A stretch of DNA of 64,000 nucleotides from Nephromyces sp. MM_2019 (lineage: Eukaryota > Apicomplexa > Aconoidasida > Nephromycida). Under the pieces are notes generated by a model, which did not search any database, had not been told where the DNA came from, and was given only the letters and a program-made list of their open reading frames with translations. A program made the position numbers and the translations under genes. Of this stretch, positions 4,423-44,750 are shown piece by piece; position 1 is the first letter of the stretch, and the number at the start of each line of letters is the position of its first letter. The stretch covers positions 3,427-67,426 of the forward strand of contig JADHZB010001481.1 in the NCBI GenBank assembly GCA_015657535.1, given 5' to 3'.

Positions 4423-7400
4423 TTATGATATGGAAAACATGTGGAGCATTCTATGAGTGACATTAAATCCTCCTGATTGAGAAATAAGTTTCTAATTAGC
4501 TGTAATTCGTTGATGTTTTAGTTGAAATTTACCAGAAATATTTAATGCTGCTAGGAAGGTCGCCACAAGAGCGCAAAGGGTGCTAGTCTTGAACATATGC
4601 TTATCATATTGTACCATGCTTCCGATAATTATTATTCCAGAGAGCTGAGGTATATAGGGTATAGGTTTGTATATTTCTATGATATTGCTTTTTACCCACA
4701 GCATTGGTGACGGACATCAGTGGTGTGTGCAGCGCCGGAGTTACCGACCACACGCTGAAAAGTTGCATTGTATTTATTTTCAATTTAAGACGGGTAATAT
4801 AGAAAGTATGTCCACCAGTAGTATCCTACGACCTGTTAATTATTAATCGTGTTATCAGTTATTAAAAAGGTACCAGAATTGTCAATTTACCAGTGAAAGT
4901 GAGAACAGGAAGAAGTGCTGCATCTCGAGTGTATCCAGTATGGCTGCAAGTACATTCTTGAGATGATATTTCCTGCTTGAACTTATGTTTCTTACCTCCA
5001 AGGAAACCCATTAACACCAAGGCCAAAAGAACGCAGCAGAAAAATACTAGATCAGATGCGATTATTTGTTTTATGTCTATCTGTAAAAATATATATTTTA
5101 CTAGTTATATACTGAGGAATAAGATGGAGCTAGTACCTTCTTTGCTGTTTTAATTGGAACTGGCTCATTGGGTACAAAACTCTTCTGCTTGGCTGCTACT
5201 GGCTGTTGCTGCTTCCAGAGTACAGCTGTGATTATGTGATACATAAGCCAAATATATAGGTTTTAAAGTTTATTTGGGCCTTATAAACTTACTGCCATTG
5301 TAAGCCACACACATTTCTCTCAATATTTGGTCGTTTAAGTTTAAGCTAGATGGATCCTCTGAAATTTTTGTTAAAATGAGATTTGTTTCGTGAGCTAGCT
5401 AGAATGTTGGAGTACCCCCTAATTCTTCTAGTAAATTGACAATATTCATAGAGTAAAGCTCAGATGCCTGGTTTGCCCTGAAAACACTTTTCTTAATTGA
5501 CACTTTTTATGAGAGAGCTGGCAAGCTTTACATTCTTGTCTCAATCTTGCTCCTTCCTAGAATATTCACTTGGTTTACGGTTATATCACCTGCATATTTC
5601 ACCCCTATTAGTATGCGATGCATGCTCTCTCTGCTGTTAAGTACTCACCTTCGCGTACGGAACATTCGCAGTTGCCGCCCCATCTTAAAGGTGTCGTTAT
5701 TGTGATGAAATGAGCAATGCTAAACAATTAGTTAGCTATATTACCCTTCCTCGGTGGCACCATTCTAAATGAGATGATATGTATTTTTAATTTGTTTGTT
5801 TTGATTCATAACGCTTTCTGGCACCTCAGTTGCTAGGTCAACTATTACTGATCCTGGTTTCATTGTTTTCACCATTGGCTATACGTAATAGTAATCAACG
5901 GAGCGTCCAGTTCCGTAGGCAAAGTCGGTATGGAGATAGGGTAATCAAGGCATGCTGTGATTACCGTAGAGATAAGCTTCGGGGAACTTTTGCCTGCAAT
6001 TCGAAGTTTTAACAGTTGCTTCGAAAGATAAATATAGCTTTTATTACCTGGGATAGCCGCTGTGCAGACTACTATATCACAAGTCTTAATAAACTTTGAT
6101 ATGATCTTCTTCTGCGCTTCCTGTAGCCTCGCATTCCTGAAGCCCATGATTTTGATACAGTTATCAGGCTTGATTATATGCGCATGATATAATACAATTC
6201 TGTAGCATATCCAAGGGAATCCTGAGCATCTTCCTCCATCTCTATGGGTAGGAAAGTGCCCCCACAGCTTTCTACCTCCTCTCTGGTAGCAAAGCGAGTG
6301 TCATTCGCAAATACTTGTGCACCCATGCTGTGAGCAGTCGCTATAGCCTGAATGGTTTTGAATTTCTCCTTCATGTCTCCACAGATTCAAGTGATAAGTG
6401 TTACCTGTAAGCCTGCCACTCCTGCACCTAATACAAGCACTCGCGCAGCATCTACTCTGCCTGAAAAATTACCCTGACACCATAATCAATTAACTTGTTC
6501 CAAGCTGCTCTGCACACCTGCTGCGGTTATAGACGGTTTACTAAGTCTTGGTAAAGCGTTGAAGGCTTCTATCACTGCTCGGTATCCCTATCAGAGGATA
6601 GTTTTTTTCTTGGATTTTTGTGATAAGTCAGGTGTGGCCTCAATTTAGTATTCGCACCTGCAAGCTACTCATAGAGGTGCGCACATCCAGCTATGAGCGT
6701 TACGATGGATTACTTTTTAGCCTATCGTACAAACACAAGATATACCACCTTCTGTGCACGGGATGTCCTTGGAACTTCATCAACGGCGATTGCAGTAATT
6801 TTCCTGAAGCATTACATAGCGCTGCTTTATGTATCTTATTTGACGTCGTAATCAAGGTTATAACCTCGTCGCGAATGCGCTGAGCAGTTCTGGATGCCTT
6901 GCAGGCCAAATTTGACTGAGGTACATTTAAACGTGTTTAATTTTACTAGAAAACTTGATAATGTGGTACTTCTATAACCTTATGAAGAGTTGCCCAGGTT
7001 GCAAAGAGCTTATAATCTCCAGAGTAGGAGTCATTATCTGGACTATAACTTCAGATACTGATATGACTTCTTGCTGTAATTGTAAGATTACAGCTCCAGC
7101 AGTCTGAATTAGAGCATGATTTTAGGAATCTTAAGCGCGCAGAATCATTATAGACATTGCCTGGAAGGCTTCATCCGAAAAGTTAGCATGAATTCCAGCT
7201 CCAGATTGGATATACACCCTAGCAAGATACTTTGCGGATAAACTATTAGTATTTGTATTTTTATGGGTCGTACTTAATACCTGTAGCCCAATCTTCTTAG
7301 CCTCAAAATGGAGCTCGGAACAATGGAAACCTTTAGGAAACGTTTCTATAATATGGCCCAGATTTTTTTGTGCTCGATTACCAGGGTGGTATCCGAATAA

Positions 7401-10011
7401 TCATCTTTCAGCACTCCTAGGGACTTATTTGCGACCGGAAAGGCTACCTCCACAGTATTTATATCGTCTTGAAAACTCGCAGAATGAGTGATTGCTCCCG
7501 CGCATTGCACTAAATCTGCTCGAGCCTTAATCCCGGCGTATATGCTCGTTGCGCTCTGCTTAGCATCTAAAATTAGGAACAACCATTTCAATTTCTTTGA
7601 AAAATCACTTTAAGTACTACCCTACCTCCGAAAAGCATCCTTGTTCCGCCAGAATAAAACAGCGGATTATCGATACCCGCATATCCCGAAGATAGAGAGC
7701 GCTTTAGCACTATCACTCTGTTGACTTTCCATATTTCTATGACCGGCATGCCTGCTATTTTACTATCCTCTTCTAGTGACGCAGGATTTATTATGTCGTT
7801 CGCTCCTATGACTATAGTTAGGAAAATGGGCTATAGAACGTAGGAAGTCACGTCAATGCAATGCTGATGTTTCACTCACCCAACGCTACGTCAAAAGTTT
7901 CTAACTTAGGATTGCTGAAAAAAACATTTTCTACAGGGTATCATTTGTTTTTGCCAGGTTTAGAACTAACATCTCATCCATTTCTTTAACGATATAATAA
8001 GGAACATCAGCCTCCGCGAGAAGCACATTCATGTGTCCTGATATATTTTCCAGTTTTTGCGGCATGACTGAGGATAGAAGAATGCACGTAATTACCCGGC
8101 ATGCGGCCTGCTACCGGATGTATGCAGAATTGGACGTCAATGCCCCTTGAAATCAGGAACTGGATACTTAATGATTTTATAGAGTGCTATGAAGTTTTGA
8201 TGGAGTATACACATTACTCTCGCTATTTGGGCGATATCTGCCTGACATCTGAAAACAAGTCGGCGGTGAAAAATGCAGTGACTACTAACGTGCTTAACTG
8301 CTTAGCACCTGCTGACTGCCATCCCATATCCAGGAACTATCACTACTCTCTTTGCCCCTAAAAGCTCTTCGACAACCTGATTAGTAAAAGTGCTGTATTG
8401 TTTAGCGCCTGCCGGAGGCCAACTAGATGACTTACGCATTCCCAAGTAGTTTCAGCTGCAATGCCAGAACCACCGGGATGCATGTAATCGAAATTTTGAT
8501 CCCATCCTCCAAAGACTACGTTTGTGAGACTCCGATTCATGCCTTTACTGTTACAGAAGTTTTTCGATGTAGCCTTGTAGTGCCACAGGTACTTACCACA
8601 TGACGTATGAAAGAATAGCCCCAGACGCTCCAATCAACGAGCCAGATATTATAAGAAGATTGTTATCTAGCATAAAACCGCTTGCTGCTGTTGCAAATCC
8701 CGAGTATGAATTCAACAAACTAATGACTACAGGCATGTCTGCTCCACCAATAGAACCGATCAAGTGTACACCCAGTAAGATGCTCAAGCTAAGTTCGCAA
8801 TAACTGAAAAGAAGGTAATAAATTTAGGAAAATCTTTTAAAGACTGGAAAAAGAAGGTACTCACAGGGATCCCAAACGCAGCTTTGACTTCCCAGCGACG
8901 CAGAAAGTAACGGCAAAAAAGACTATAGTACCAAACAAAAAAGAGTTAATCGCATGTTTTCCCGGTAAGTTCCATGCGCTGCTGTTAATTATCTCATGAA
9001 GCTTTGCCGCTGCAATGACTGCGTAAGTTAATTGGAGAAAATTATTCTATACTTTGGTTGAAATTTAATTAGCTTACGTGATCCAGAAAAGGTGACAGCA
9101 GCTATGAAAATGCTTGTCACCAATTCAATGCTATGCGCCAAGTGCTCCTCCGAGGGATCTGCCGGTGTTGAATGAAAACTTGAAAGACTGACCTGGTAAG
9201 CGAAGCAAGGCAGGTGCACACATCCAAGCGGCGTGAATTTCATATTATGAATGATTTCACCCACCAAAATTGCCGATAGCCCCACAAAACTATGAAACAA
9301 AGCGACAAGCTGCGGAATATGCACTGTTCCCACTCTTTCTCCTATTAAGAACCCAATCACCAAAGCTGGTAATACGGCAACAAAAAAATAGAGGTACTGA
9401 GAATGAAATCCTTCTTCAGAAAATGTTACAATAACAGCTGTGGCCATTCCAAGTATCCTGATGATTGCGAAGAATATTCTTCCGCTCTCAACAAAATGTA
9501 AGTATTTCCTACCCAATAAAATTCCCTCGCTTCGCAGTGTCAGGGGTACTGAGTCCCCTGAGGCACAGTATGAACGCAATGGCCGAGAAGAGATACACAG
9601 CTCCCAACAAAGAAGGAATCCTGGAGAAAGCAGCTTTCCGAGGTATCCCCCCCTCAGGATTCCTTGGAATAGCGGAATTATCGTCGTAGTTATCATCGTG
9701 GGCGGGGGTAGGGGGGTCATTTAAGCCCTTATCTAAGGCTTCCTCTTTCCTGTTGATCCATTAAATTTAGAGAGTAGTTCAAACAAAGATTCAAGCATTT
9801 ATGAGGGTGCTAAGGCTCACGTGTTGATAGGGAAAAACAAACTATGGTTGTTCGCATGCTTTCCAGGAGCACCACGATGAGTTACATTGCTGCCATGAAG
9901 GGTGCTTCCGAGACTAGTGGCTCGGAAGCACAGCACCGTTCCGCTTTGGAGACATAGTAAGCTTACATGTACCAAGAAAAAATCCCAACGCAAATACCTA
10001 CGCGTCAGCAT
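4423..10011 (-). CDS. NNT: NAD(P) transhydrogenase, proton-pumping, single-chain beta-alpha fusion
   Basis: The enzyme transfers hydride between NADH and NADP+, coupled to proton movement across a membrane. Reading from 10011 downward: a hydrophobic N-terminus in exon 1 (9821-10011; [11 protein letters not shown]) looks like a signal or targeting peptide. Exons 2 (9513-9749) and 3 (9078-9457) hold the beta membrane domain (RGNFIG joined to [21 protein letters not shown]). Near 8600-8790 comes [18 protein letters not shown]. The NADP(H) domain follows ([37 protein letters not shown], 7590-7840), then the NAD(H) domain ([27 protein letters not shown] at 6250-6370; [11 protein letters not shown] near 6060), then the alpha membrane tail ([11 protein letters not shown]). 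The last intron is 4473-4532 and the final exon 4423-4472 gives [10 protein letters not shown] before TAA. Introns checked are 55-72 nt. Domain order dIIb-dIII-dI-dIIa is the apicomplexan one, the reverse of animal NNT. No break was seen. Internal exon ends were checked only in part. Confidence 0.93.
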
Positions 10012-11494: not shown

Positions 11495-14285
11495 CTACCG
11501 CTGTATAATTTCAACAGATGCAGTGAGCATTTTCTGGAGCGATAGACTCTTTGAGTTTAACAGCAGTTCAACTAGTAAACTAGTCCTGTGCTTGAGAGAA
11601 AGTTGATCCCATGCTTTGTATGGAACAGATATGACAGTCCATCCTAACATTTCAAGGAGCCATCGCTTGAAGACAGTAGGCCCCGTCATAGTTTCTTCGC
11701 TAAAGTAAACACAGAAAGATTATATTAAAAAAGGTTTATTCAGGGCATAAATTACAACCATAATAATTTTTTTTGCATAAAGAAAAAAATTTTTCAAAGA
11801 TATCTTTGGGGAGAATAGAAATGTTTTATAGAAAAAAAAATTTATTTAAGCTTAGAAAATAAACAGCCTACTCACTGATGATGCGGACTGCTCTCCTCGG
11901 TAGTTTCCAAATTGGTCAGGTAATGACTTGGCCCATCAACTTCTAAAGCAATACGATCATCCGTGAGATTCCATATTGCAATGTCGACACTGCAGGCAAT
12001 GAGGTGCGAGGTACTTTTACACACAATTCACAGAAACTTACTGGTTTTGTTGAGTTACTAACCTTAACAGTTGCTTCAAAACTGCTTCATTTTTGTGCGG
12101 TATCTGCAAGTCAGCAAGAATCCTCGAAACCTCTTTGTGGAAGTAAGAAGAATTTGAAACATTCTTTGCTCTTCTACTTAAATCATGCTTTACTGGCAAT
12201 GAATAAAACCTTCCTAAGCCCTCCGAATAATTCATCTCCAAGTCATACTGAGTTCCCTCATTATTCAACAAATTCAGGGTGAGGTCAACCTGTTGCAGCT
12301 GAAATAAATAAAAGCAATTTATTAGATCAAATATTCCTATACAAACTTTATGAAAATTAACGACATACCAGGGTTAGGGTAGGTAAAAACCTGCGAGATA
12401 TAACAGACCAATCCTGATCCAATAAGACCTTTATATTAGAGCTAAAAATTTTTGCATATCCCAAAACACAAATACTCCAACATAAGGTAGCAATCATATG
12501 GAGAAAGGAAGCAGAAACTTCCTTTTTAATCATTAATTCAGAAGAGATAGCTTCTGCCAAATTTACGAGCCATGACATAAAAGAAATTACATTTTCTCTA
12601 TATTCTTGCGATGAATGTGCCATATTTTCCGTCGGGTAACATATCGCGAACATCCGAGAGGCAGACGTAACAAAATTTATCCATTGAACACTGTTCTTGG
12701 ACTCTAAATTAGCTTTTTCGCCAAGTTGCTCAGGAATTAGATGACAAAAGCTGTTTAGCAGACTTCTGTGAGTGCAAAGAGCCTTTGAAAATATCATGCA
12801 TAAGCTTGTCCACCCAACCAAGTTGAAAAGCTGAAACATTGGGGAATTTAAAATAAGGCCGGAAACGGCATGTAGCTCAGTATGTAAGTTAGACTTTGAT
12901 GATCTATGCAGAGCCCACAGAAACGAGGTCAAGTCACCGTTTTGAGTTCGCTGATGCTGCTTGCGAAAAGCTGTTTTGCTAGTCTTTAAGGAGTCTACAT
13001 GGGCTATAAAGCGATCGCGCATCTTTTTAAGTAGCTCGCGATTAATTTCGCTATTTTCCGAGAAAATTTGCAGCACCAGCGCGAGCTCCCTGAAAGAAAA
13101 TTTCTCATGCTCTAAACAAAGCACATTCTTGCACCGCTTTCTAAATTGCTTGAAAAGCTCAACGGTAGGCGGACCATCAGCTTTTATTTCCTTGGGACCA
13201 TAGCTGGTGCCTTTTCCAAGTTTGACAGGAAAACTCGCTTCTGCCTTCGATAAACCCGTTTTACTGGTCCAGATCTTGCTCATCTTTCCAATCCCCCATG
13301 AAAGCAGTGTAATATCCTTCGGACTAAAATATTGAGTATCTAAATCCAATTTAACTAATATAAAACCCAGCATGGGTTTCAGTGATTTCTGCGGCAAAAA
13401 ATCAAGTTTCGCCAAGCTCCACACAATCGAGGCTAACTGATCTCCTCTAAAAAAAGGTATGTTAGATTTTCGGCACAATTCGCTAGTTTGTGAAAGCTGG
13501 AAGTTGCATGACCTCAGAAATTCGTCAGCTTCTTCAAGAAGTTTGAAATTGCGATATTTCAGCTTTGCACATGACCACAAAATATAAGAAAGATCCCCTC
13601 CGCGTAAATCTTTAGGATACGGTAGTATATGATCAGAAAATTTAGAAAGAAGAGTCTTATCAAAATGCTGGACTATACCAAGAGCGCAAAGTATGAAACT
13701 GATATCAGCTACAGTCGTCGCGGAGGCTGCATCTCCAACTGAAATATCAGAACTTGATGCCTTCTGTGGGTTACGCAACGCAGATAATGCTGCATTAGAA
13801 ATTAAAGTAAACAATTTACGATTGTATACATTCATTGCCGCAAGCGAGCCCAGAACATCAGCGCTTTCTTGAACCCCAATGTTTTCCAGACTAGGAACTT
13901 TTTTAGCTTTGTCTACAAAAAGAGTAAACCCTTTGCGAATGCTCAGCATTGTTTCAAATAAAGCATCTTTCGCCTCACCAGAAAGCCCGCTGAGCCCCTG
14001 AATTTCTCTAAAGAGCACAGAAATAGACCGCATCAAGGGGGAGAAAGTTGAGATGTCTAGAGCATGTTGGCAATCTTGCTTTTCAACAAGCCTAAAAAGC
14101 AGTTCTAAGAATATCTTTACCATAAAAAGTTTTGTTATATGCCTTCTCATGGGAGTAAAAGGAATTTTCAAAAAAAATTTTACTTCTTCAGAGACTAAAG
14201 ATTTTTGGAGTACAGCAGAAGGAACTTCTCCGTGTCTGACCTCAGAAGAATCCTGATGGATGTCTGATACCCTTATTGGCAAATC
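11495..14285 (-). CDS. RAP-domain protein, C-terminal part (helical repeats plus RAP domain), four exons
   Basis: RAP proteins are putative RNA-binding or nuclease-like proteins, expanded in apicomplexans and mostly imported into mitochondria or plastid, where they act on rRNA or mRNA. Exons, in transcript order, are 12369-14285, 12063-12298, 11876-11989 and 11495-11699; joins keep frame (823 residues plus TAG). The large exon carries helical repeats of the FASTK/heptatricopeptide type with recurring 'LxxIxWSxAKLxF' blocks (LSYILWSCAKLKYRN; LASIVWSLAKLDFLP). The RAP domain spans the last three exons: HKEVSRILADL, SVDIAI, RIALEVDGPSHYL, KRWLLEMLGWTVISVPYKAW. That covers the whole domain, including the EVDGP core. 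The big exon begins at an AG acceptor, lacks its own leader, and matches in phase (0) the donor at 15460 upstream, so it is probably the second half of the gene at 15461-17668. Confidence 0.9.
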
Positions 14286-15460
14286 CTGTAGAACAAGTGC
14301 ATAGAGAAAAATCAATACATCAAAAATTTATCTTGAAGAAATATTGGCAGGTCACTTTTTTCAAGAGTGCCCAAGAGAGTATTCTACAGACGATATAATC
14401 AACATTTTCCGGGGTTCATTCCAGTGAAATTCCTACCAGAAACGCTCAAAGCTCATACAAAGAAGTAGGCTACCTCCTGTAAGCTTATACAAGTTCTTAT
14501 AACAACAAAAAATTGTCCCAATAAAGTACAAGAAATAATTACTAAAGTGTGAAAATCTGGTTTCAATTTAAGTAAAGTAGCTAGCAGCTAAATAGAATAA
14601 AAAATTTTGATTTTTGCCATGAACTTCGGCTCCTACATCTTGGATATTGATAGATATTATCATAAACCCTAACGTATCAATTACACAAGACGACAAGGTT
14701 CCAAGAAAGAGCCACAGGCTCTAAGAGTAAAATATTCCAACAAATTTGTATATTCCGCTTAAAAGCTCAAAAGAAATTAGTAAGAAACCCACCTCCTTCA
14801 GTAAAAAATCATTCAATTAGTGTAAATCCCTGATATAATATATATACTTAAACAGTTAAAATGCCATTAACAAGAGTAAAAAACAAAAGCTGACTTAAAA
14901 TTTTATAAAAAATAGCACATTAATCCCTACTTTATCAGAAGTTAGCGTCGGGGGTAACAAATTTTAGCGAATGGAAAGGAAATTATGTTCAACGCTGGGA
15001 GCACTAATACTAACTTATTCACTTGAAGCGAAAATAGATGTTTTTCGCCTCAATAACATGCAGAAGAAAACACGCAAAGGGAAACTTAGGGGGCTCAAAA
15101 CAAGACGTCACGCATGGGACATCCACTAGAAAGCTTTGCTGCAAGAATGAGCACTAAACTTTTATCTGTGTGTACTCAAACATGTTTTGTGTTCTACTTT
15201 TTCTAATTAACGGTTGCTTTCAAAGAAATAGAAAAACAGTTTGCTATTAAAACAGTGTATCTTCTTGCCCAAGAAGTGACTGAAAAAGCTCAAGATTATT
15301 CCTAGGCCAGAAGCTCTACACAAACTCTTTTAAAGTCTAAAATTGCACTTGCCTATCTTAAAAAGCTTTTCAACAGCACACAAGCTCAACTTGCAGGTGA
15401 AGTGCGATGTTTACACAGGAATATCTATCATATTTGTAGTAGAGCAGGTTAGGATTTTAC
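14286..15460 (-). other. probable 1,175-nt intron joining the two halves of the RAP gene
   Basis: No coding frame is visible. The upstream exon can end at AAA before a GT at 15460 (phase 0), and the downstream exon starts in phase 0 after TTCTACAG at 14286. If this is not an intron, the two flanking coding blocks are separate genes and the second lacks an obvious ATG and leader. Confidence 0.6.
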
Positions 15461-17668
15461 TTTGTTTTCTATGGGATTCTTTATTAAGATATCCACAGAA
15501 ATGCCACTCCAAAGAGTATATTCACTAAGGATTTCTTGCCCAGATATGGATTTACAACTGCTAAAAACACCGCGATGAAACTCGGAATCTCTATCTCTAT
15601 CTGCCCTTGTTGAAAAAAAGCAGGCAGGTCGCAGAGCATCCAGTACTAACAGGCCATCAGTCCTTGCAATAACATCCTCCAGGTCTTTCTTAATGAAAGG
15701 CAAATTCTGACTATTGAAGATTAAACTTAAGTACCAAAAATATGCCCGTGTTTGAGCCTCATAACTTATACCAAGCGGGCAGTTTTCCGAGGCACGATTT
15801 AATTCATCATTGTCGTTCGCAGTACTATATACCGATTGAAAGTCTGTTCTTTTTTTCAAAATATGCTTTAAAGAACTCGATTCACCTACAGCTTTACGTA
15901 GTCTCAATATTAATTCGGTGAATAGCGGCATCGGATATTCATGACGTAGCGCCGCTAGCCACAATGAGGTGGCTAATAAATCCGAGGTAATTGTCCGACA
16001 GGCAGCTACCGCTACATCAAGAAGTTTGACGATTACATCAGGAACAGTAAGAACATCAACTTTCACGCCAGAAGCCTGAGGGCCGCTTGGAAAATTTCCC
16101 ATAGAATTTAGGGAATTCATGTAACAGGGCATCGCGAGCCCTTGAAACTTTTCTAAAGTTGATTCCGCTGGAACAAGTGATGTATCATCTCTACTAGAAG
16201 CGTGATCCAAAGAACACTGAAAAAACAAAAAAGGAGATTGGGCAATATGAAAACCGCACCAGATGGCCTGTCTAGCATCCAAATCATCGGTTTGATCAGA
16301 TCCTGATTTATCTCGCAGATACAGCTGCGTACAGAGCTCTGAATATAATATAGCTGGATACATTGAATTCTTTGAAAAAGCGTCCAAAAGATTTATCAAC
16401 GTTGAACGGTTTCGTCCAGTGATTAAATTTCTCCTGATGTAGTCTTTCGGGATTTTCGATAGTCTAGACTCTACAAAAGTAAAAAGTTCATCCGCCTTAT
16501 GACTATGTGCCCTTGACAAAGCCCATAGGGTGTAGGAAATACTCACAAGCTCCAGGTTTTGAAGCATATCCGGTACCTTTTCGAAAGCAGACGCAATAAC
16601 TTGATCAGGAAGGTAATTTAAGTTCACAAATCCCACCAGAGCCATCGAATAACCCTGTGCCGGTAAAGAAAATTTATTCCGGAGAAAGGCCGAAGCTAAA
16701 AGGGGTAAAAGCTCATTTATTTTGTCTTTCACCCGATTCCCATTGGCATAAGAGTAACCTGTCCAGAGGGAAGAATAATTTTTCGCATCCAATTGCGAGT
16801 TATCAAAATTCAAAGCCAAATTTAATTTTCCTAAAGACCAAAGGATGGTTGATATGGCCCTCTGATACTTCTCTTCGCAGCAACTCCTGTGTTCAAACCC
16901 TCGGATAAAATCAAGCAGTGTGTTGATCAGCTCAAAAAAATCATCGCTGCTTTTTTTGGTTTCCCCATACGGCACTTTTGTTTTCTTAGAAAGTAACTGA
17001 TTTCTGCAGCGACCTTCAATGAAACTATCACTCCTTGTGCTATTTTCCATATCCCTGGTAGCCAAACCATGAATTGAATCGTAAAGCTTCAGCTTTCCAT
17101 TACGATTGAAATCGGCGGCAAAATTCGTATCTGCATTTTTTCGTAGCACGCGAATTCTTGCAAGACTGTGCAACGCTGTAACGCAGTTTATTAAGTCCAA
17201 ATTTTGCCTGTGCCATCGTATAACTTGAAAAACATCTGCGAAAGTAGCGCAATTCCTAAGGTTCCAATTAATATCAAACTTGGATGCTGTAGCAAATCCT
17301 CGCCATTCAGAAGAAATAACGGGAGAGTAAATTAAGGCTGCGAGACCATTGACATGTAGATCCATTTTCAAAGACCTTTTTCCCTGTTTCCTGCAGTATT
17401 TCTGCAGATATTTTTCAGGAACTTCATGTAAAGTTTCATCTTCATTACAACAGCCATATGATGGTATGGCGTGAGAAGATTTATGACGCGCCGCAAAAAT
17501 TTGGAAAGGAGAACCCCTTGGCCTTAGCCTTGCAGCATCGACTTCTACAGGGAAAACACTCACTGGGGAAAATAATGCTGCGATTCTTCTCCCGCGGAAA
17601 TCCGCTGCGCGATACTCCAATACTTGCAATATACGACCAAGGCGAAAGCAAAAATTTATACGTTCCAT
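15461..17668 (-). CDS. RAP/heptatricopeptide protein, N-terminal exon with organelle-targeting leader
   Basis: A single long exon of 736 codons, with ATG at 17668. The first 60 residues are rich in Arg, Ser and hydrophobics and poor in acids (begins MERINFCFRLGRIL), as in a mitochondrial presequence. The body is helical repeats of the FASTK/RAP type: NCVTALHSLARIRVL, ISTILWSLGKLNLAL, YSMALVGFVNLNYLP, ISYTLWALSRA, SLWLAALRHEYP. There is no RAP domain at its own end; the frame runs only a few codons past a usable donor at 15460 before a TAA. Spliced to 11495-14285 it would give about 1,559 residues, with repeats followed by a RAP domain, a normal layout for the family. Alternative: a separate repeat-only protein ending at 15449. 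Expected role is binding organellar RNA; the exact target cannot be read from sequence. Confidence 0.82.
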
Positions 17669-18905
17669 AGCATGAAAATAAATCGGAAAAGAGTTTTAAA
17701 AGATGCATTTTTTTGAATTGCAAACGTCAAGCGCACAATCAAGTCTTGAAGGGCTTAACAAATTCTTAGGCAATGATTCATCTCATCTCCGCATTAGTGA
17801 CTGTATATTGCAAATCCTCTGAAATAAATCCTAGCAATGACCGCTATCTTTCCACATCCTTTAAGCAACAGCAGAGTGTTTTGACCCCTGAAGATTAATA
17901 CTTCCGGACCAGTTCAGCGAAGAAAAGAACACATGCTGCGCTTTGTTCAAGACAACACTACGCAAAGAAACATATAAAAGCAGTAGAGTGATGCAGAAAT
18001 AGCCATAAATCGAATTCCGTATAATCACTCGAAGGAATGTGAGAAGCCTGGCAGATATTCACTTCTTCGAACCAAAGCCATTTGGCAGATATTCGATTTA
18101 TTTTATCCTCGTCGTGGCTACTTCATGAGATCGCAGGCCAGGGAATATCTCCACGGGTATCGGTGTAGGGTTTAGGGCTCCAAACTCCATGGGTATGTCA
18201 GCAGCGCAGGGTTTAGAACCCCAATACTACGGGTATGCAGGTGCTTCGAATTTGAAGATAGCAAAGCACAAGTTCTGCCAGCCTATAAAGTGATTTCATA
18301 GCTATGATAAAGATCCTCCCAATCTCGTACTTTGGCCGCCAGCAAATAAAAAGGAAAATCTAAATCTTGATACTACAATAGGTAATTTATTACTAGAGCT
18401 CTGAAGTGAAGTAATTTTATCTAATTCACAGCAGTTTAATCCCATTCACTTACGAAAAGTAACAAAGGGTGGTGAATTGGCAAAAAATGAAACTACGCGG
18501 TAAGTTACAAGATACTCCAATGTGTAACTTCCGCTTTATTTAGTGACATATTATTGCATCATGGAATGTTACCGGAGCCGAAATAGTGTACATCAGCTAC
18601 GCAATACTCTTGCGGTAACAAAAAACTTGAGCTGAACTGGCACCCAGCCAGCAAGCAATTCTTCTCGGGCTTGTGATAAGACATCAGGTGTGTGCTTGTA
18701 GTTTTGTGTTACTCCGGTGATGAACCTGACATTTTTTCCAATGAAGGACACTAGTAAAAGCATCTTGCTATACTAGATGTGCGTGCTTCGGTACTGCTGC
18801 ACTATAGTTTGGTAAACTTTTCTTAAAGCTAACGTGAAGACTACCTCTGGCCAGTGCCCTTCCAAGTGGTGCACCTATCGGTAGGACGATATCTCGGGGG
18901 GAAAC
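17669..18905. other. region upstream of RAP gene and of the dnaE remnant
   Basis: Contains the RAP promoter by position. The stretch 18660-18900 could be a heavily decayed continuation of the dnaE remnant (the part just before the palm), since one + frame near 18765-18835 loosely follows the 'L-ITDLDPL-LLFERFLNP' pattern. That match is weak. No host exon recognised. Confidence 0.4.
18152..18242. repeat. decayed minisatellite with AGGGTTTAG core
   Basis: Two and a fraction units of 36-42 nt, each starting CCA(C/T)GGGTAT and containing AGGGTTTAG, then a third partial start (ACGGGTATGCAG). The core resembles the apicomplexan/plant-type telomere repeat TTTAGGG, but it occurs only once or twice per unit. 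Confidence 0.6.
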
Positions 18906-21073
18906 ATGAATTTTCCCCGCTTTTCGTGACCCCTTGTTGATAACTATGCAGAGCTAATAGGGTTTCCGATTTTAAAAGCAGAAGCTTCTGCGATTAGGGA
19001 ATTTTTAGCGGTTCGTAAAAAGGCGCAGGTTACTCCAATAGATATTGTGTATGCTTCTTTTAATCACTGAATATATAAATATATAGTGTAGGGGACTTCG
19101 GTTACTTCACTCATTGATGCTATCTGTCACAAACATCCACTCGATTATAAGCTTATGAAATGGTAAAAAATAGTGTTCAAGGATAAGATTTCTATAGATG
19201 ATGCAGTAAAACTACTTGTTCTAATTGAATATTTGTAGTACTATTTGTTTTAGAGCCGGTTACTATTTCGTCTACGAAAAGAGAATGCTGCAAGTTCTAA
19301 GAAAAGTAGTTTCTACCGATAAATATAAAATACCTTATATCTAGCCTGATATAACTCAGTTACATTGAGAATGTGTTGCTGCAATTCATTTCATATTAAG
19401 ATTTGAATTTATTATTCAGGATCACACCATTAGTAACATGTCTCTGCTACCATCATCGTGACCGTCTTATTCCAAGAATCGTTTAGTAGCGTTCCTATCA
19501 TTGATGGTGAGTGATTTAATCAGTAAAAGTATGGTTTAGGACTTCAAGGTTTGAAAAATATCTTATAGCTGTTATGGCTATCATAAAACTGTAAAAATTT
19601 TATTCTGGGCTACTCTTTTTTTAGAGTATTTTAAACTTTGGATGCTACTGCCCCCCAAAAAGACGAATGTATTCCTTCTGTCGCATTCCAGAGAATGTAT
19701 TCTGAAATAGCTTTGAGTATTTTTTCTCTGAAAAAGATTGCCATATTGATGCTTTTATTTTGAGTTTATCTAATAGCTAGTATTTACTAATACAGGGTGT
19801 ATGCTGTTCACGTAAAGTTCTCAGATACCAAAACTTATGTATATTGCGTCAATAACTATGTTTGCTAGTCATGCTTTTTATAATGGGCAGTGTGCAGACA
19901 TAGTAAGAAGGGCTATGGGAAACCAAATAAAAGAGATCTATGGTCAAGAAAAAAAATTCCTAGAAGGTTGGAAAATGCACGGAATTACTCGTAAATAAGC
20001 AAAAGAAGTTTTTGGTATAGTAGCAAAATTTTCATGCTATGGCTTTAATAAATCTCATCTTTTTTTATGTTGACAATCACAGTAACTGGCCTTGGTCATA
20101 ATTTTGATAAAATGAGAGCATCTTCATTAAATGTTGATATGGATTGAGCTTGCTCGATGTTTTTTACACATAAGTTAAAGCATGATTTGGTGGTCTTTTC
20201 TTCCAGAGAAATTTTGCCTTGGATAAAACTTGGCTCCGTTTAAACTCTCTCAGTGATAGTTTCTCAAAGAAATATCAATATAAGGTTCAAAATGTACAGT
20301 ATGCTGAGAGTATTAGGCACGTCCAGCCTACACATCGGGTTTTACACTATCTCGGAGTTTTGATATAAAACTTTCAGCTTTTGCTAAGTCGTGAAAAGTA
20401 GGTATCAGAGGCAACGTTGAATTTTTTGATTTGAAACTTACCTTACGTACTGAAAATTCAAGGCTTCAAATGAATGAGATTTTAGTATATTGATTATAGC
20501 GTGCATGTGAGCGGAAAAACACATCGGCGATTATCTATTTATTTTCGCCAAGCTGCCGAGCTTTTGAGAGCAATATATACTCTTTTTGAAAATCGTAAGT
20601 ATGCCCCTTACTACATGGATCGATTGTAGCATTATGAATATACTGTACACAAGCTTGAGATTCGTGAACTGTGGCAAAATTAAGTAAAAGGCAAGTCGCT
20701 ACAGTTACCTTAAGATGGCAACCAACCTAACTGAATAATTACCATCGAAAAATATACGCACTCTTCTTCTGGAAGGTGCTTTTCGAAGTTTCCCAGTGGC
20801 AACTTATGCTGCCTCAGCTACAATGACTAGCCATGACAAATTTGCAACTACTATAGGTACCTATATTCGCGTTGCATTCATATCCCTCCACGTTACACGG
20901 AAACCTGTTCACCCGAATTAACTATATCTTGTTGTACCAAAAACCCATGCCTCACACTTAAAGCTGCAGCAGTGGAGGTTTCAATTATTGTTGAAACGAA
21001 GTGAGTTACTCTATGAGAGTCTATGCTCTATTAATATACGCAAATGGCTTATTCGATCAGCATTGAAGTCATG
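18906..21073 (+). pseudogene. dnaE: decayed bacterial DNA polymerase III alpha subunit (DnaE), palm to OB region
   Basis: DnaE is the bacterial replicative polymerase and has no eukaryotic homologue. Pieces in the three + frames follow DnaE in order and spacing. At 18930-19068, ELIGFPILKAEASAIREFLAV matches the palm 'IITFGTLKAKA-IRDV-RV' and IDIVYASFNH the following 'VDKI-KLIPFNP'. At 19106-19238 KLLVLIEYL fits 'KLEGLYRH'. Traces of KFDFLGL and VFQLES lie near 19590 and 19690. At 19894-20058 there is a long clear match, ADIVRRAMG then KEVFGIVAKFSCYGFNKSH (family: ADLLRRAMGK, FAGYGFNKSH). Near 20112-20240 come MRASSLNVDMD and EILPWIKLGSV (family 'FLAASLNLDMD', 'ILPPDIN-SSV'). At 20738-21073 one frame with a single stop may be the OB-fold. 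Stops (18927, 19996, 20145), frame shifts and missing catalytic stretches show it is dead. The N-terminal PHP part is not recognised. Confidence 0.85.
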
Positions 21074-22128
21074 ATATACGAATTCACGCTTGGCCAAAAG
21101 CGAGCAAGCCACATCGTATTGAATCAGCATTGTAGCATGACAACAAGATTCATCGCTTAATGGAGTACCCATCACTTTCTCATGTGATGGTATCACAGGA
21201 GTAACTATTCTAAATTATCAAAGTTACACGGCAACATTGTTTCCCGGGGCTGTGTATGTAAGAAACTGAAGTTTTTTTCAGCCAGCTTGATAAGGCAGTC
21301 ACAGAAGATTCATATGGGATACAAAATACCTTGTATTGTGCTTGTTTTTCGGTTTTACATCCTTGGAGGCTCCCCAACACGTTTTTCGCTAGCATTTCCT
21401 ACTTTTTAAATCCCACCAGGGTAAAAACTTCTAAATGTCAAGTCCAACGGCGTTCTTTACTAACAAAATTGCTCTTTCAAGTGCTACCTGGTGTAGTGAA
21501 TCTGCAAGATAGGGCTAAGAAAACAATTTAAATCCATATGTTCTTGGAAAAACTTAAAAAAATACCCTCCCCTTGCCCCGATAGCGCAAAACCCCACAAG
21601 GTACCATCTTCACACACTCTGTACTTATGGGCATGTTATTTAATTCATAATGCCGTGAGATAGTACGGAGTAACTCCCACAAAATATACATTGAATCCCA
21701 TAATTAAAATGGATGCTGTGTGTATTATTGAAATGGAAAAGACTGCTTATAATAATAATGTGATACAGGAAGAATTCATTTCACCGAATCTTTGATTTTA
21801 TCTACACTGCTGTAGAGGTTTGAAGCTGCATTAACAATGAAATAGGAAGGATGTAACTTCTGAGTATTATGATTTGCGGGTAGCTAAAAAAAAGAAGTTT
21901 GTGTGCCCTTTTCGCCCTTTTAGCTACATTTACGGCTCATGCAACTTCTTCGGAAACTTCGTCGGTGCAGGGTGAGCCACCGTTTGATTATCAAATGAAA
22001 CGACTTATATTGGCATTCCTCGGTCACCTGGGGAGATAAATATCCACTGGGAGCGGTTTTAACGCTTTGCACCCATAGAAGCGTGCTGAGAGAATTACCA
22101 GATAGCGTGCACAACAGGAACTTTTAAC
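21074..22128. other. unassigned stretch after the dnaE remnant
   Basis: No host exon recognised. A - strand frame at 21011-21196 (61 codons, with AKREFVYHDFNADRISHL) and a + frame at 21331-21531 are open but match no family I know. They may be chance or further bacterial debris. Unlike the flanks to the right, there are no GT tracts here. Confidence 0.45.
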
Positions 22129-22460
22129 ACTATGTGTGAATATGTTCAAACCATTTCATACTCACTGTGCTGTATGTGGTATATTGGTGCTGTGTGTGTG
22201 TATGTGGTATTGATGGATGCTGAGTGTAGAATATATTCAAATCGTTTCATTCCCACTTGGCTTTTATGTGTGTAAATTGGTGGTGCGCGGGGTATTGATG
22301 CTGTGTATGTTCGCACAATCATGGTGGTGTGCTATATTCGTGTGGTTAGGGTGTATTGGGGCTTTGTGTGCGTACGGGGTATTGATTCTGTGTGTCGTAC
22401 ATATTCAAACCGCTTCAAACTTCCCAGTGTATGGAGTTCTTTCACACGCTGTGCACACAC
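22129..22460 (+). repeat. decayed GT-rich minisatellite with ATATTCAAAYCGTTTCA units
   Basis: The motif (A)TATTCAAAYC(A/G)(T/C)TTCA recurs near 22139, 22231 and 22401, each set in GT-rich sequence with 'GTATGTGGTATTGATG' blocks. Spacing is about 90 and 170 nt, consistent with a roughly 85-nt unit that has lost one recognisable copy. Open frames across it are low-complexity and not convincing genes. Confidence 0.65.
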
Positions 22461-34682: not shown

Positions 34683-34814
34683 AGGAAAGGCTGATGTAGT
34701 TATCTAAGCGACTTTTGTGTGTGAAACACGCGTAATACTACGCCAGGAAAGGCTGATGTAGTTATCTAAGCGACTTTTGTGTGTGAAACACGCGTAATAC
34801 TACGCCAGGAAAGG
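34683..34814. repeat. perfect 62-bp tandem duplication
   Basis: Unit 34683-34744 is repeated without a mismatch at 34745-34806, then the first eight bases (AGGAAAGG) start a third copy that diverges. The unit holds a small inverted repeat around GTGTGTGAAACACGC. The perfect identity, against the decayed state of the other repeats nearby, means the duplication is recent or maintained. Confidence 0.95.
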
Positions 34815-36476
34815 TGATAACTCTTCCAGACGCTTTTGCTTCTGCTTCTGGTTTAACTCAATAGAGCTTTACTTTCAACGATCTCTCTTTCAAAGCTCGA
34901 GGTTCCACTGCTGAGTTCCAGCACGGAATTTTTTCTGCTAATCTGAATCAAAACTCACATACAATGAGATATATCTTTTCGGGAATTAGAGTTACGTGTG
35001 TGTTTTGTAAATTCTACAATGTTGAATTCCCTTAACTTATTCAAATAGTGGCTTCTTTCTCCAAAGTAGTGGCTTCATGTTTCTGCTTCTTTCCTCTAGT
35101 TTTGTTGTGTATTCTTTTTGGTGGCTCTTTTTCATGTACAGTTTGCTCAATATCTTAACACGGCATCTTCTTATTTTTTTCTGGTTACACACATATAGTT
35201 AATGCTGGGATCTGATCTGTTTGGAAATTTTCTTGCTCAGCTTCTCATATAGATACATTTCTTTGGGAGAAGAGTCTTCTCTTGATGGCTTGATTTATAT
35301 AAGGATCGTTTTAGGCTAATCTCTTCTTCATTATATCCACTAGTTTCATTCCCGGGATTTTGTGTTGAAAACTGGCATACCCAATTCAAATGACTCCCAT
35401 ATTTCAACGTGTGTAGCTTACTTTTGCATGCTTGCCCTTCCCTACCTCAAATTCTCTTCTGAGAAGAGCCGGTTAGGTTGGCACTTCAGCTATCTTGCGA
35501 AGCAGAGTGATTGCCTTGGTGATTGATCATGCGATGTTTTATGCGTCTTCATCCCCATTTTGCTGGTGAACTATTGCATTTGTGCCTAGCTACACACAGC
35601 TTCGTCAATTGCCGAAACGTTAGAGCTCTTGCTTTTTACCAGTTTTTAATGCTTCTCTGCAGCTGTAGAGTATTAGATTTGCTGCTTTTAGCGTATTTTT
35701 TCTCCTCTTTGATGAGCTGCCGGTATAGCTGAGGATCCTCTTTATATCCGTTTGTATCATTTTTTCTTGTGGGATTGATGCGATACAGTAGCTGCCCCCT
35801 CATTTGCTGAGAAATTGAGGAAGTTTTGAGAATCGCAGCTAATAGGAAGCATCATCATGTGTGCATTAGCTGAGAAACATGTGACTTGGTAGGCTTCCAG
35901 CAAAATATTCTCCGTACAACCTTGGTATTCATCTGGAAGGTATTATATTATCAGAGATTGTGTGTGTGGAAGGGCTGAGTAGTAGCATTTTTATTGGCAA
36001 TAAAATTGTCAATTTATTGAGATGTTTATAGTTAAGCAAACCTCCTTGGGTAAGGAAGTTTCTCTAAATTCTATCGTTTTTGGTTTGTGTTCTGGATTTT
36101 TCGTCTATATGTTGCTTTTGTGATTATTAGGATGATAAGCTGGTTTAGAGTCAGCAAGAAATGCTGGTTTTGCAGTTGTATGTCCTTCGCCTATTTTCTT
36201 TATGCTTGCTGATAGAAAACTCTTTTTCCGCTTCTAAGTTTATCACAATATTGTCAGGAATCTGCCGATGTTTGTATTAAATAGCTGTTTTTTGCCCTGA
36301 ATTTCCACAAATATATTGCTTATACTGTGTCGTTTCTTCAAGTATTTTGTGATGTTTTTATTTTAACTCCTCGTACCGTTTTCTTATAGTGAGTCTGGTA
36401 TCTTCTCACCCGCTAATGTTTCAATTTCATGCCTTTTTTGTATCCTTTAAATTTTTTTGAAAGCTATCGCCTCCTT

Positions 36477-44517: not shown

Positions 44518-44750
44518 TTTCTTGAGGCTATTCTAGGCTTCAGTTAAGTTTATGCTAACAAAAGAGATTTAGGCTTCAAAATAGCAGCTTCAGCTTCTTG
44601 TGCTTGAGGATATTCTAGGCTTAATTTAAGGTGATACTAACAAAAGAGATTCAAACTTTAGAATAGAAGCTCCAGCTTCTTTCTCATAGCTATTCTAGGC
44701 TTAATTTAACTTTATACTAACAAACGAGATCCACACTCCAAAGTAATGCC
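44518..44750. repeat. three-copy tandem repeat, 80-82-nt unit
   Basis: TATTCTAGGCTT recurs at 44529, 44611 and 44691. Between these lie matching blocks (ACTAACAAA(A/C)GAGAT, AGAAGCT(T/C)CAGCTTCTT). Copies are about 80% alike by eye. Confidence 0.85.

Follow-up and report, generated by a model that had tools for sequence, protein, structure and literature searches.

A broken dnaE fragment, probably Rickettsiaceae-like and one of several captured scraps, in an apicomplexan nuclear genome

The dnaE fragment and its host setting

We analysed a stretch of 64,000 nucleotides, here called the window, from an 81-kb Nephromyces contig (C760). Within it lies a short piece of bacterial dnaE. Host-like frames occur on both sides: a PNTB-like frame at 9.0-9.7 kb and a C2H2 zinc finger at 29.4-29.9 kb. 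Bacterial and host sequence are joined in one contig, as assembled rather than in reads. The relevant features are as follows.

12357..14315, minus strand: open frame read as a host gene; its likeness to FAST kinases is weak and falls under the curated cut-off
15449..17668, minus strand: open frame of 739 aa with no Pfam match, taken as a host gene
18939..18986, plus strand: the 'ITFGTLKAKA-like' motif (DNYAELIGFPILKAEA), marginal both as DnaE and as MnmE
19169..19261, plus strand: 93 bp common to the window and contig C43 (L006:1501-1591), 76% identity in a DNA search
19564..19893, plus strand: upstream flank, without significant DnaE homology before about 19834-19873 (10.2 bits)
19873..20058, plus strand: bacterial dnaE fragment of about 186 bp, from the end of the fingers domain (residues ~701-764 of Rickettsia DnaE)
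19894-20058, plus strand: certain core of the fragment, from homology searches and profile alignment
19987..20058, plus strand: 72-bp match, 83% identical, to another dnaE fragment, which lies on contig C336 (L005:1491-1561)
19996..19998, plus strand: in-frame TAA that breaks the fragment
20059..20358, plus strand: downstream flank, where the conserved ...AAAYALISYQTAYLKA... block is expected next but homology to DnaE is absent (13.1 bits)

The 739-aa frame had no homologues at E <= 0.001. Ten other open frames in the window gave only weak or zinc-finger matches in Pfam. Pfam identified the PNTB-like frame (9031-9720, minus strand) as NAD(P) transhydrogenase, and we read a second frame (8596-8823, minus strand) as its continuation. 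Read as one gene, the two make an intron-bearing host gene. Tandem arrays at 44518-44742 and 34683-34818 have units of 82 bp and 62 bp, respectively.

As the preliminary description had reported, the motifs ADIVRRAMG (19894) and YGFNKSH (20038-20058) are present and share one frame, interrupted by a single TAA. The fragment comprises 62 codons with this one stop and no frameshift. E. coli DnaE, searched against the 48.3 Mb assembly (1127 contigs), gave the window fragment as its sole match at E <= 10 (E 1.1e-6, 43% identity). The fragment reading, with X at stops, matched 295 of 561 scored candidate proteins at E <= 0.001 in a database of 5.8 billion proteins; the best reached E 1.2e-8 with 55% identity. 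Ten DnaE-type models from NCBIfam also matched (best 1e-15). Their scores were well under full-length cut-offs, as expected because only a fragment is present.

A frameshift-tolerant search, proposed earlier as a check, did recover DnaE, but confined to about 186 bp. Alignment of the window to a Rickettsiales-rich DnaE profile scored 83.6 bits; the highest of 25 shuffles reached 26.4. On 21 other real stretches of the window the same profile exceeded 35 bits twice (38.2 and 45.7), and both alignments pass through Glu-rich low-complexity sequence. Stretches inspected elsewhere in the window above 28 bits were Glu/Lys-rich. The suggested Pfam finger model, PF17657, matched the open piece of the fragment (E 0.015), but at 15.1 bits, under its cut-off of 22; over the whole assembly this model found nothing at E <= 1. 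Pfam assigned no family to three read-through frames each of the window and C336. A solved-structure search with the window fragment brought no gain, and a pattern scan of genome contigs with the fragment itself found 0 relatives among 14 pattern matches.

The window fragment is broken bacterial DnaE sequence. Homology searches support the earlier view of such sequence, alphaproteobacterial in look, between host-like genes. Compared with bacterial DNA polymerase III alpha (DnaE; TIGR00594, PRK05673), it matches in sequence at the end of the fingers domain; it differs in holding about 62 of some 1150 residues, plus one stop, and is no polymerase gene. A functional DnaE would need an uninterrupted frame spanning the PHP, palm and fingers domains; only residues ~701-764 are found, with one TAA. 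No open frame at the site is longer than 85 aa. We infer that the fragment is unlikely to function.

Length and ends of the fragment

The locus had been described as a decayed gene of about 2 kb, with stops and frame shifts. By tblastn, 112 DnaE proteins (rows shorter than 1080 aa excluded) gave significant matches only at 19834-20058; the next best had E 0.15. Two of the motifs on which that description relied did not hold up. The 'ITFGTLKAKA-like' string at 18957 translates as IGFPILKAEA; its score, 18 bits, was reached by 2/60 and 1/60 shuffles in the expected band. LNVDMD at 20127 lies in another frame, at chance level (38/60 shuffles). The spacing had been called gene-like; profile columns 423 to 748 predict about 975 bp, and the window shows about 1120 bp.

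For the upstream flank, 73 of 100 shuffles scored as high as the observed 10.2 bits; for the downstream flank, 10 of 100 reached 13.1 bits. Decaying homology on both sides of a core would mark a worn full-length dnaE, but both flanks are at the level of shuffled DNA. We compared these values with simulated decay. Briefly, for 28 of the 31 panel loci the dnaE gene was randomly decayed to five levels, and simulations were counted only if the core scored within 12 bits of that observed (206 of 560 for the window). Either flank was as low as observed in 0/206. At 15% substitution, simulated flanks averaged about 62-65 bits downstream and 103-109 bits upstream. The decayed genes had themselves gone into the profile, a bias in favour of the simulated flanks, but the margin is wide. 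Hence, the window piece is short with abrupt ends and not a worn-out gene. The flank test contradicts a decayed whole dnaE gene over about 2 kb.

The same holds for two fragments on other contigs, C336 and C869. Their flanks are without homology, and no matched simulation had flanks as low (0/123 and 0/130, from 261 simulations each, again within 12 bits of the observed core). Of the five dnaE places, three were read letter by letter, and all three fragments are short with sharp ends.

Upstream of the fragment, 18925-19001 scored 26.5 bits against the GTPase MnmE with a one-sequence profile; the maximum in 60 shuffles was 28.3. With a score below the shuffle maximum, MnmE was rejected as a proven identity for this piece. 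The surrounding open stretch (18909-19067) reads ...AELIGFPILKAEASAIREFLAVRKKAQVTPIDIVYASFNH and has a marginal likeness to MnmE or the DnaE palm. NCBIfam had no match in the pieces 18909-19067, 19148-19330 and 20052-20144. Rfam, run on the window and on 18800-20300, had none either, including for the 93-bp piece shared with C43. This piece may represent a further insert or a repeat of the host genome. Its partner on C43 sits on a 3-kb stretch that also carries a BolA-like frame.

Related fragments and the donor

Five dnaE places were found in the assembly: the window fragment and those on C336, C1047, C747 and C869. A single DnaE from a Rickettsia MAG matched four of them (C760, C336, C1047 and C747; E 6.4e-9 to 0.0099). 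The C336 fragment, found by a DNA search with 17700-22200, reads FDTVAKFAGHGFNKSHASA, followed by a stop. The C869 fragment matches the Pfam palm model (E 6.4e-4) and reads ARMNYELDVICKLNLS*YFLLVSDLVQ. Two places are search matches only: C1047 covers residues 201-243 with no stop, and C747 covers residues 791-822 with one TAA. The three fragments that were read are about 80-190 bp long. The window and C336 fragments overlap at residues 743-764 but start differently, which favours at least two insertions. Among the compared stretches of four contigs, the only common sequence was dnaE and the 93-bp match.

The wording of the window fragment had been likened to Rickettsia. This likeness is backed mainly by the sister fragments; the window fragment alone leaves the order unsettled. 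It matches 274 of 289 alphaproteobacterial genomes. The proposed tree of the block was built, from 98 distinct rows of 141 fitting the motif expression, and UFBoot support for the window fragment was 7 and 27. Its median score was 57.4 bits in a non-Rickettsia panel (P0002-P0121), itself selected by words shared with the fragment, versus 54.7 bits in Rickettsia-type DnaE; the means were 58.4 and 54.9. We rejected an order-level placement from the window fragment alone on these grounds: the breadth of alphaproteobacterial matches, the low support and scores that favour the other panel. By its sequence, this fragment appears alphaproteobacterial-like, and no finer.

The sister fragments are more informative. 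The C869 fragment scored a median of 42.0 bits in 111/120 Rickettsia-type DnaE, against 18.1 bits in 85/120 others. For the C336 fragment the values were 36.6 and 33.5 bits. The Rickettsia-type set comprises the 120 proteins most like one Rickettsia-MAG DnaE, many named Rickettsia and others nameless, with one named Stellaceae and two with insect names. Rows shorter than 1080 aa were omitted from those added to the profile for donor scoring. The window and C336 fragments share the same best protein, P0122. Together, the C869 and C336 scores favour a Rickettsiaceae-like donor. Alphaproteobacterial endosymbionts of Nephromyces and Cardiosporidium are placed in the Rickettsiaceae, sister to Rickettsia (PMC7737231).

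Base composition was also compared. GC at codon positions 1/2/3 of the window fragment is 0.44/0.33/0.22, as in AT-rich coding sequence. GC3 is 0.26 for C336 and 0.28 for C869, beside 0.15-0.40 for the Rickettsiales-rich panel and 0.63 for E. coli dnaE; that panel comes from an AT-biased pattern, and a low GC3 could also result from drift within a host genome of about 38-40% G+C. The panel holds 31 loci, some titled Alphaproteobacteria only. Since these loci were drawn by an AT-biased motif pattern, the tree and the GC3 comparison lean towards them.

Other bacterial queries were searched against the assembly. Occidentia RpoC matched 20 places, nine of them on three apicoplast-like contigs. Eight lie on C2, C577 and C1113 and, judged by their open frames, are read as host polymerase genes. 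The remaining three, search matches only, are short and isolated: C511 (63%, one TGA), C728 (44%, three stops) and C1051 (58%, E 0.007). Wolbachia 16S gave an isolated 92-bp match on C1084 at 82% (search match only) and a long match, at 70%, on the apicoplast-like C1009. The RpoC and 16S pieces may be partly apicoplast-derived. A 608-aa part of Wolbachia SecA, searched without a positive control, had no match. E. coli UvrA found no fossil among its seven places, none of which has a stop: six fall in the ABC-ATPase part and one is a 29-aa match at E 0.08. E. coli queries are weak probes because E. coli DnaE finds only one of the five dnaE places.

We also compared 829 Rickettsiales open frames, by tblastn, with 141 kb of host sequence surrounding the fragments. 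The 18 resulting rows fell to dnaE, to BolA- and glutaredoxin-like frames, and to two weak matches interrupted by stops; within the 141 kb, no other bacterial gene stood out clearly. One weak match, to Wolbachia ribosomal protein L5 on C43 (L044, about 6472-6669; E 0.001, two stops), is possibly another bacterial scrap. The other, to an unnamed Rickettsiales frame, lies on C760 (E 0.003, one stop).

The apicoplast-like contigs C1112, C318 and C1009 are three different contigs that carry rpoC with in-frame TGA, like apicoplast genomes. This suggests several co-assembled species, and would suit a mixture of Nephromyces species.

Origin of the fragments

We consider it probable that the window holds a dead Rickettsiaceae-like dnaE fragment of about 186 bp in an apicomplexan nuclear chromosome, one of several scraps, joined most likely as filler in end joining. 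DNA would have been freed from lysed Rickettsiaceae endosymbionts. Pieces of it would then have served as filler during end-joining repair of double-strand breaks, and the captured pieces would have drifted afterwards. Because the pieces are short, have abrupt ends, lie on several contigs and include overlapping copies that end differently, capture at breaks is the simplest account.

Four other histories were weighed. The least unlikely is that dnaE entered the nucleus once and that rearrangements later broke it into the pieces on several contigs. Most pieces do come from separate regions of dnaE (residues 201-243, about 305-355, 701-764 and 791-822). However, the window and C336 copies overlap (743-764), have unlike left ends and are 83% identical, which implies at least two copies, and we regard this history as unlikely. 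More doubtful is the entry of a complete dnaE, or of a longer stretch of bacterial DNA, that decayed over about 2 kb. Motif-like strings do stand in gene order, at 18957 (equalled in 1-2/60 shuffles) and at 20127, and in two of three settings a codon-decay model extended as far as 20144. Against this, tblastn detects the core only; the core is well kept, yet its flanks lack homology where about 60 and 100 bits are expected, a result seen in 0/206 simulations.

Wrong joining of symbiont reads into a host contig is, if anything, slightly less credible than a decayed whole gene. Such libraries contain host, tunicate and bacterial DNA (PMC7737231, PMC6320678). Yet the window and C869 fragments contain stops, the window and C336 copies differ (83%), and three of the pieces are internal to contigs without clear bacterial flanks. 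We give hardly any credence to the idea that the host has co-opted the sequence as a functional exon or domain. The 62 codons free of frameshift, with a single stop, are what such an exon has in its favour; the in-frame TAA, open frames of at most 85 aa and more broken fragments elsewhere in the assembly speak against it.

Our preferred reading, capture of endosymbiont scraps at breaks, has parallels in other systems. The pieces are very short, in contrast to the typical lengths of Wolbachia inserts. The closest likeness is to the nuclear mitochondrial sequences (NUMTs) of Toxoplasma gondii. T. gondii has 8118 masked NUMT sites with a mean of 92 nt (PMC10948144), and PMC9490983 describes NUMTs integrating following a double-strand break. 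Both cases concern an apicomplexan nucleus with many short pieces (92 nt mean there, about 80-190 bp here). Entry at breaks is described for the Toxoplasma NUMTs in these sources; the join route proposed here is drawn from short length and abrupt ends. The donor differs, being a bacterium and not a mitochondrion, and the comparison covers three read pieces, not abundance. Nuclear Wolbachia insertions, for example in Glossina (PMC3998919), likewise place Rickettsiales endosymbiont DNA in a host nucleus. Here the host is instead an apicomplexan. Nuclear integrants of endosymbiont DNA are a known phenomenon, and our searches of the open-access literature showed no earlier report of them in an apicomplexan nucleus. 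Bacterial endosymbionts are called rare among apicomplexans (PMC6320678).

A broader proposal is tentative, and we lean slightly against it: that this nuclear genome carries about a thousand short shards of a Rickettsiaceae endosymbiont genome, a fossil record laid down by NUMT-type break repair. The estimate of a thousand or more scales five dnaE places per 3.4-kb gene to a donor of about 1 Mb; it rests on one gene, and two of the five places are search matches only. If the shards were numerous, they would record the timing and the closeness of the bacterium's association with this lineage. They would also suggest that the repair of breaks, the presumed source of the mitochondrial DNA in Toxoplasma, takes up other available DNA. 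Were such a record true, the symbiosis would be datable, symbiont lysis measurable, and the conversion of shards to genes open to study. Such shards would also be a warning that a short bacterial match in an assembly of this sort is not necessarily a contaminant or a transferred gene.

Two Rickettsia-type DnaE proteins in the panel, P0124 and P0143, carry insect names (Pseudolycoriella and Chrysoperla) and lie on chromosome-size contigs; each is probably a contaminant or an insert.
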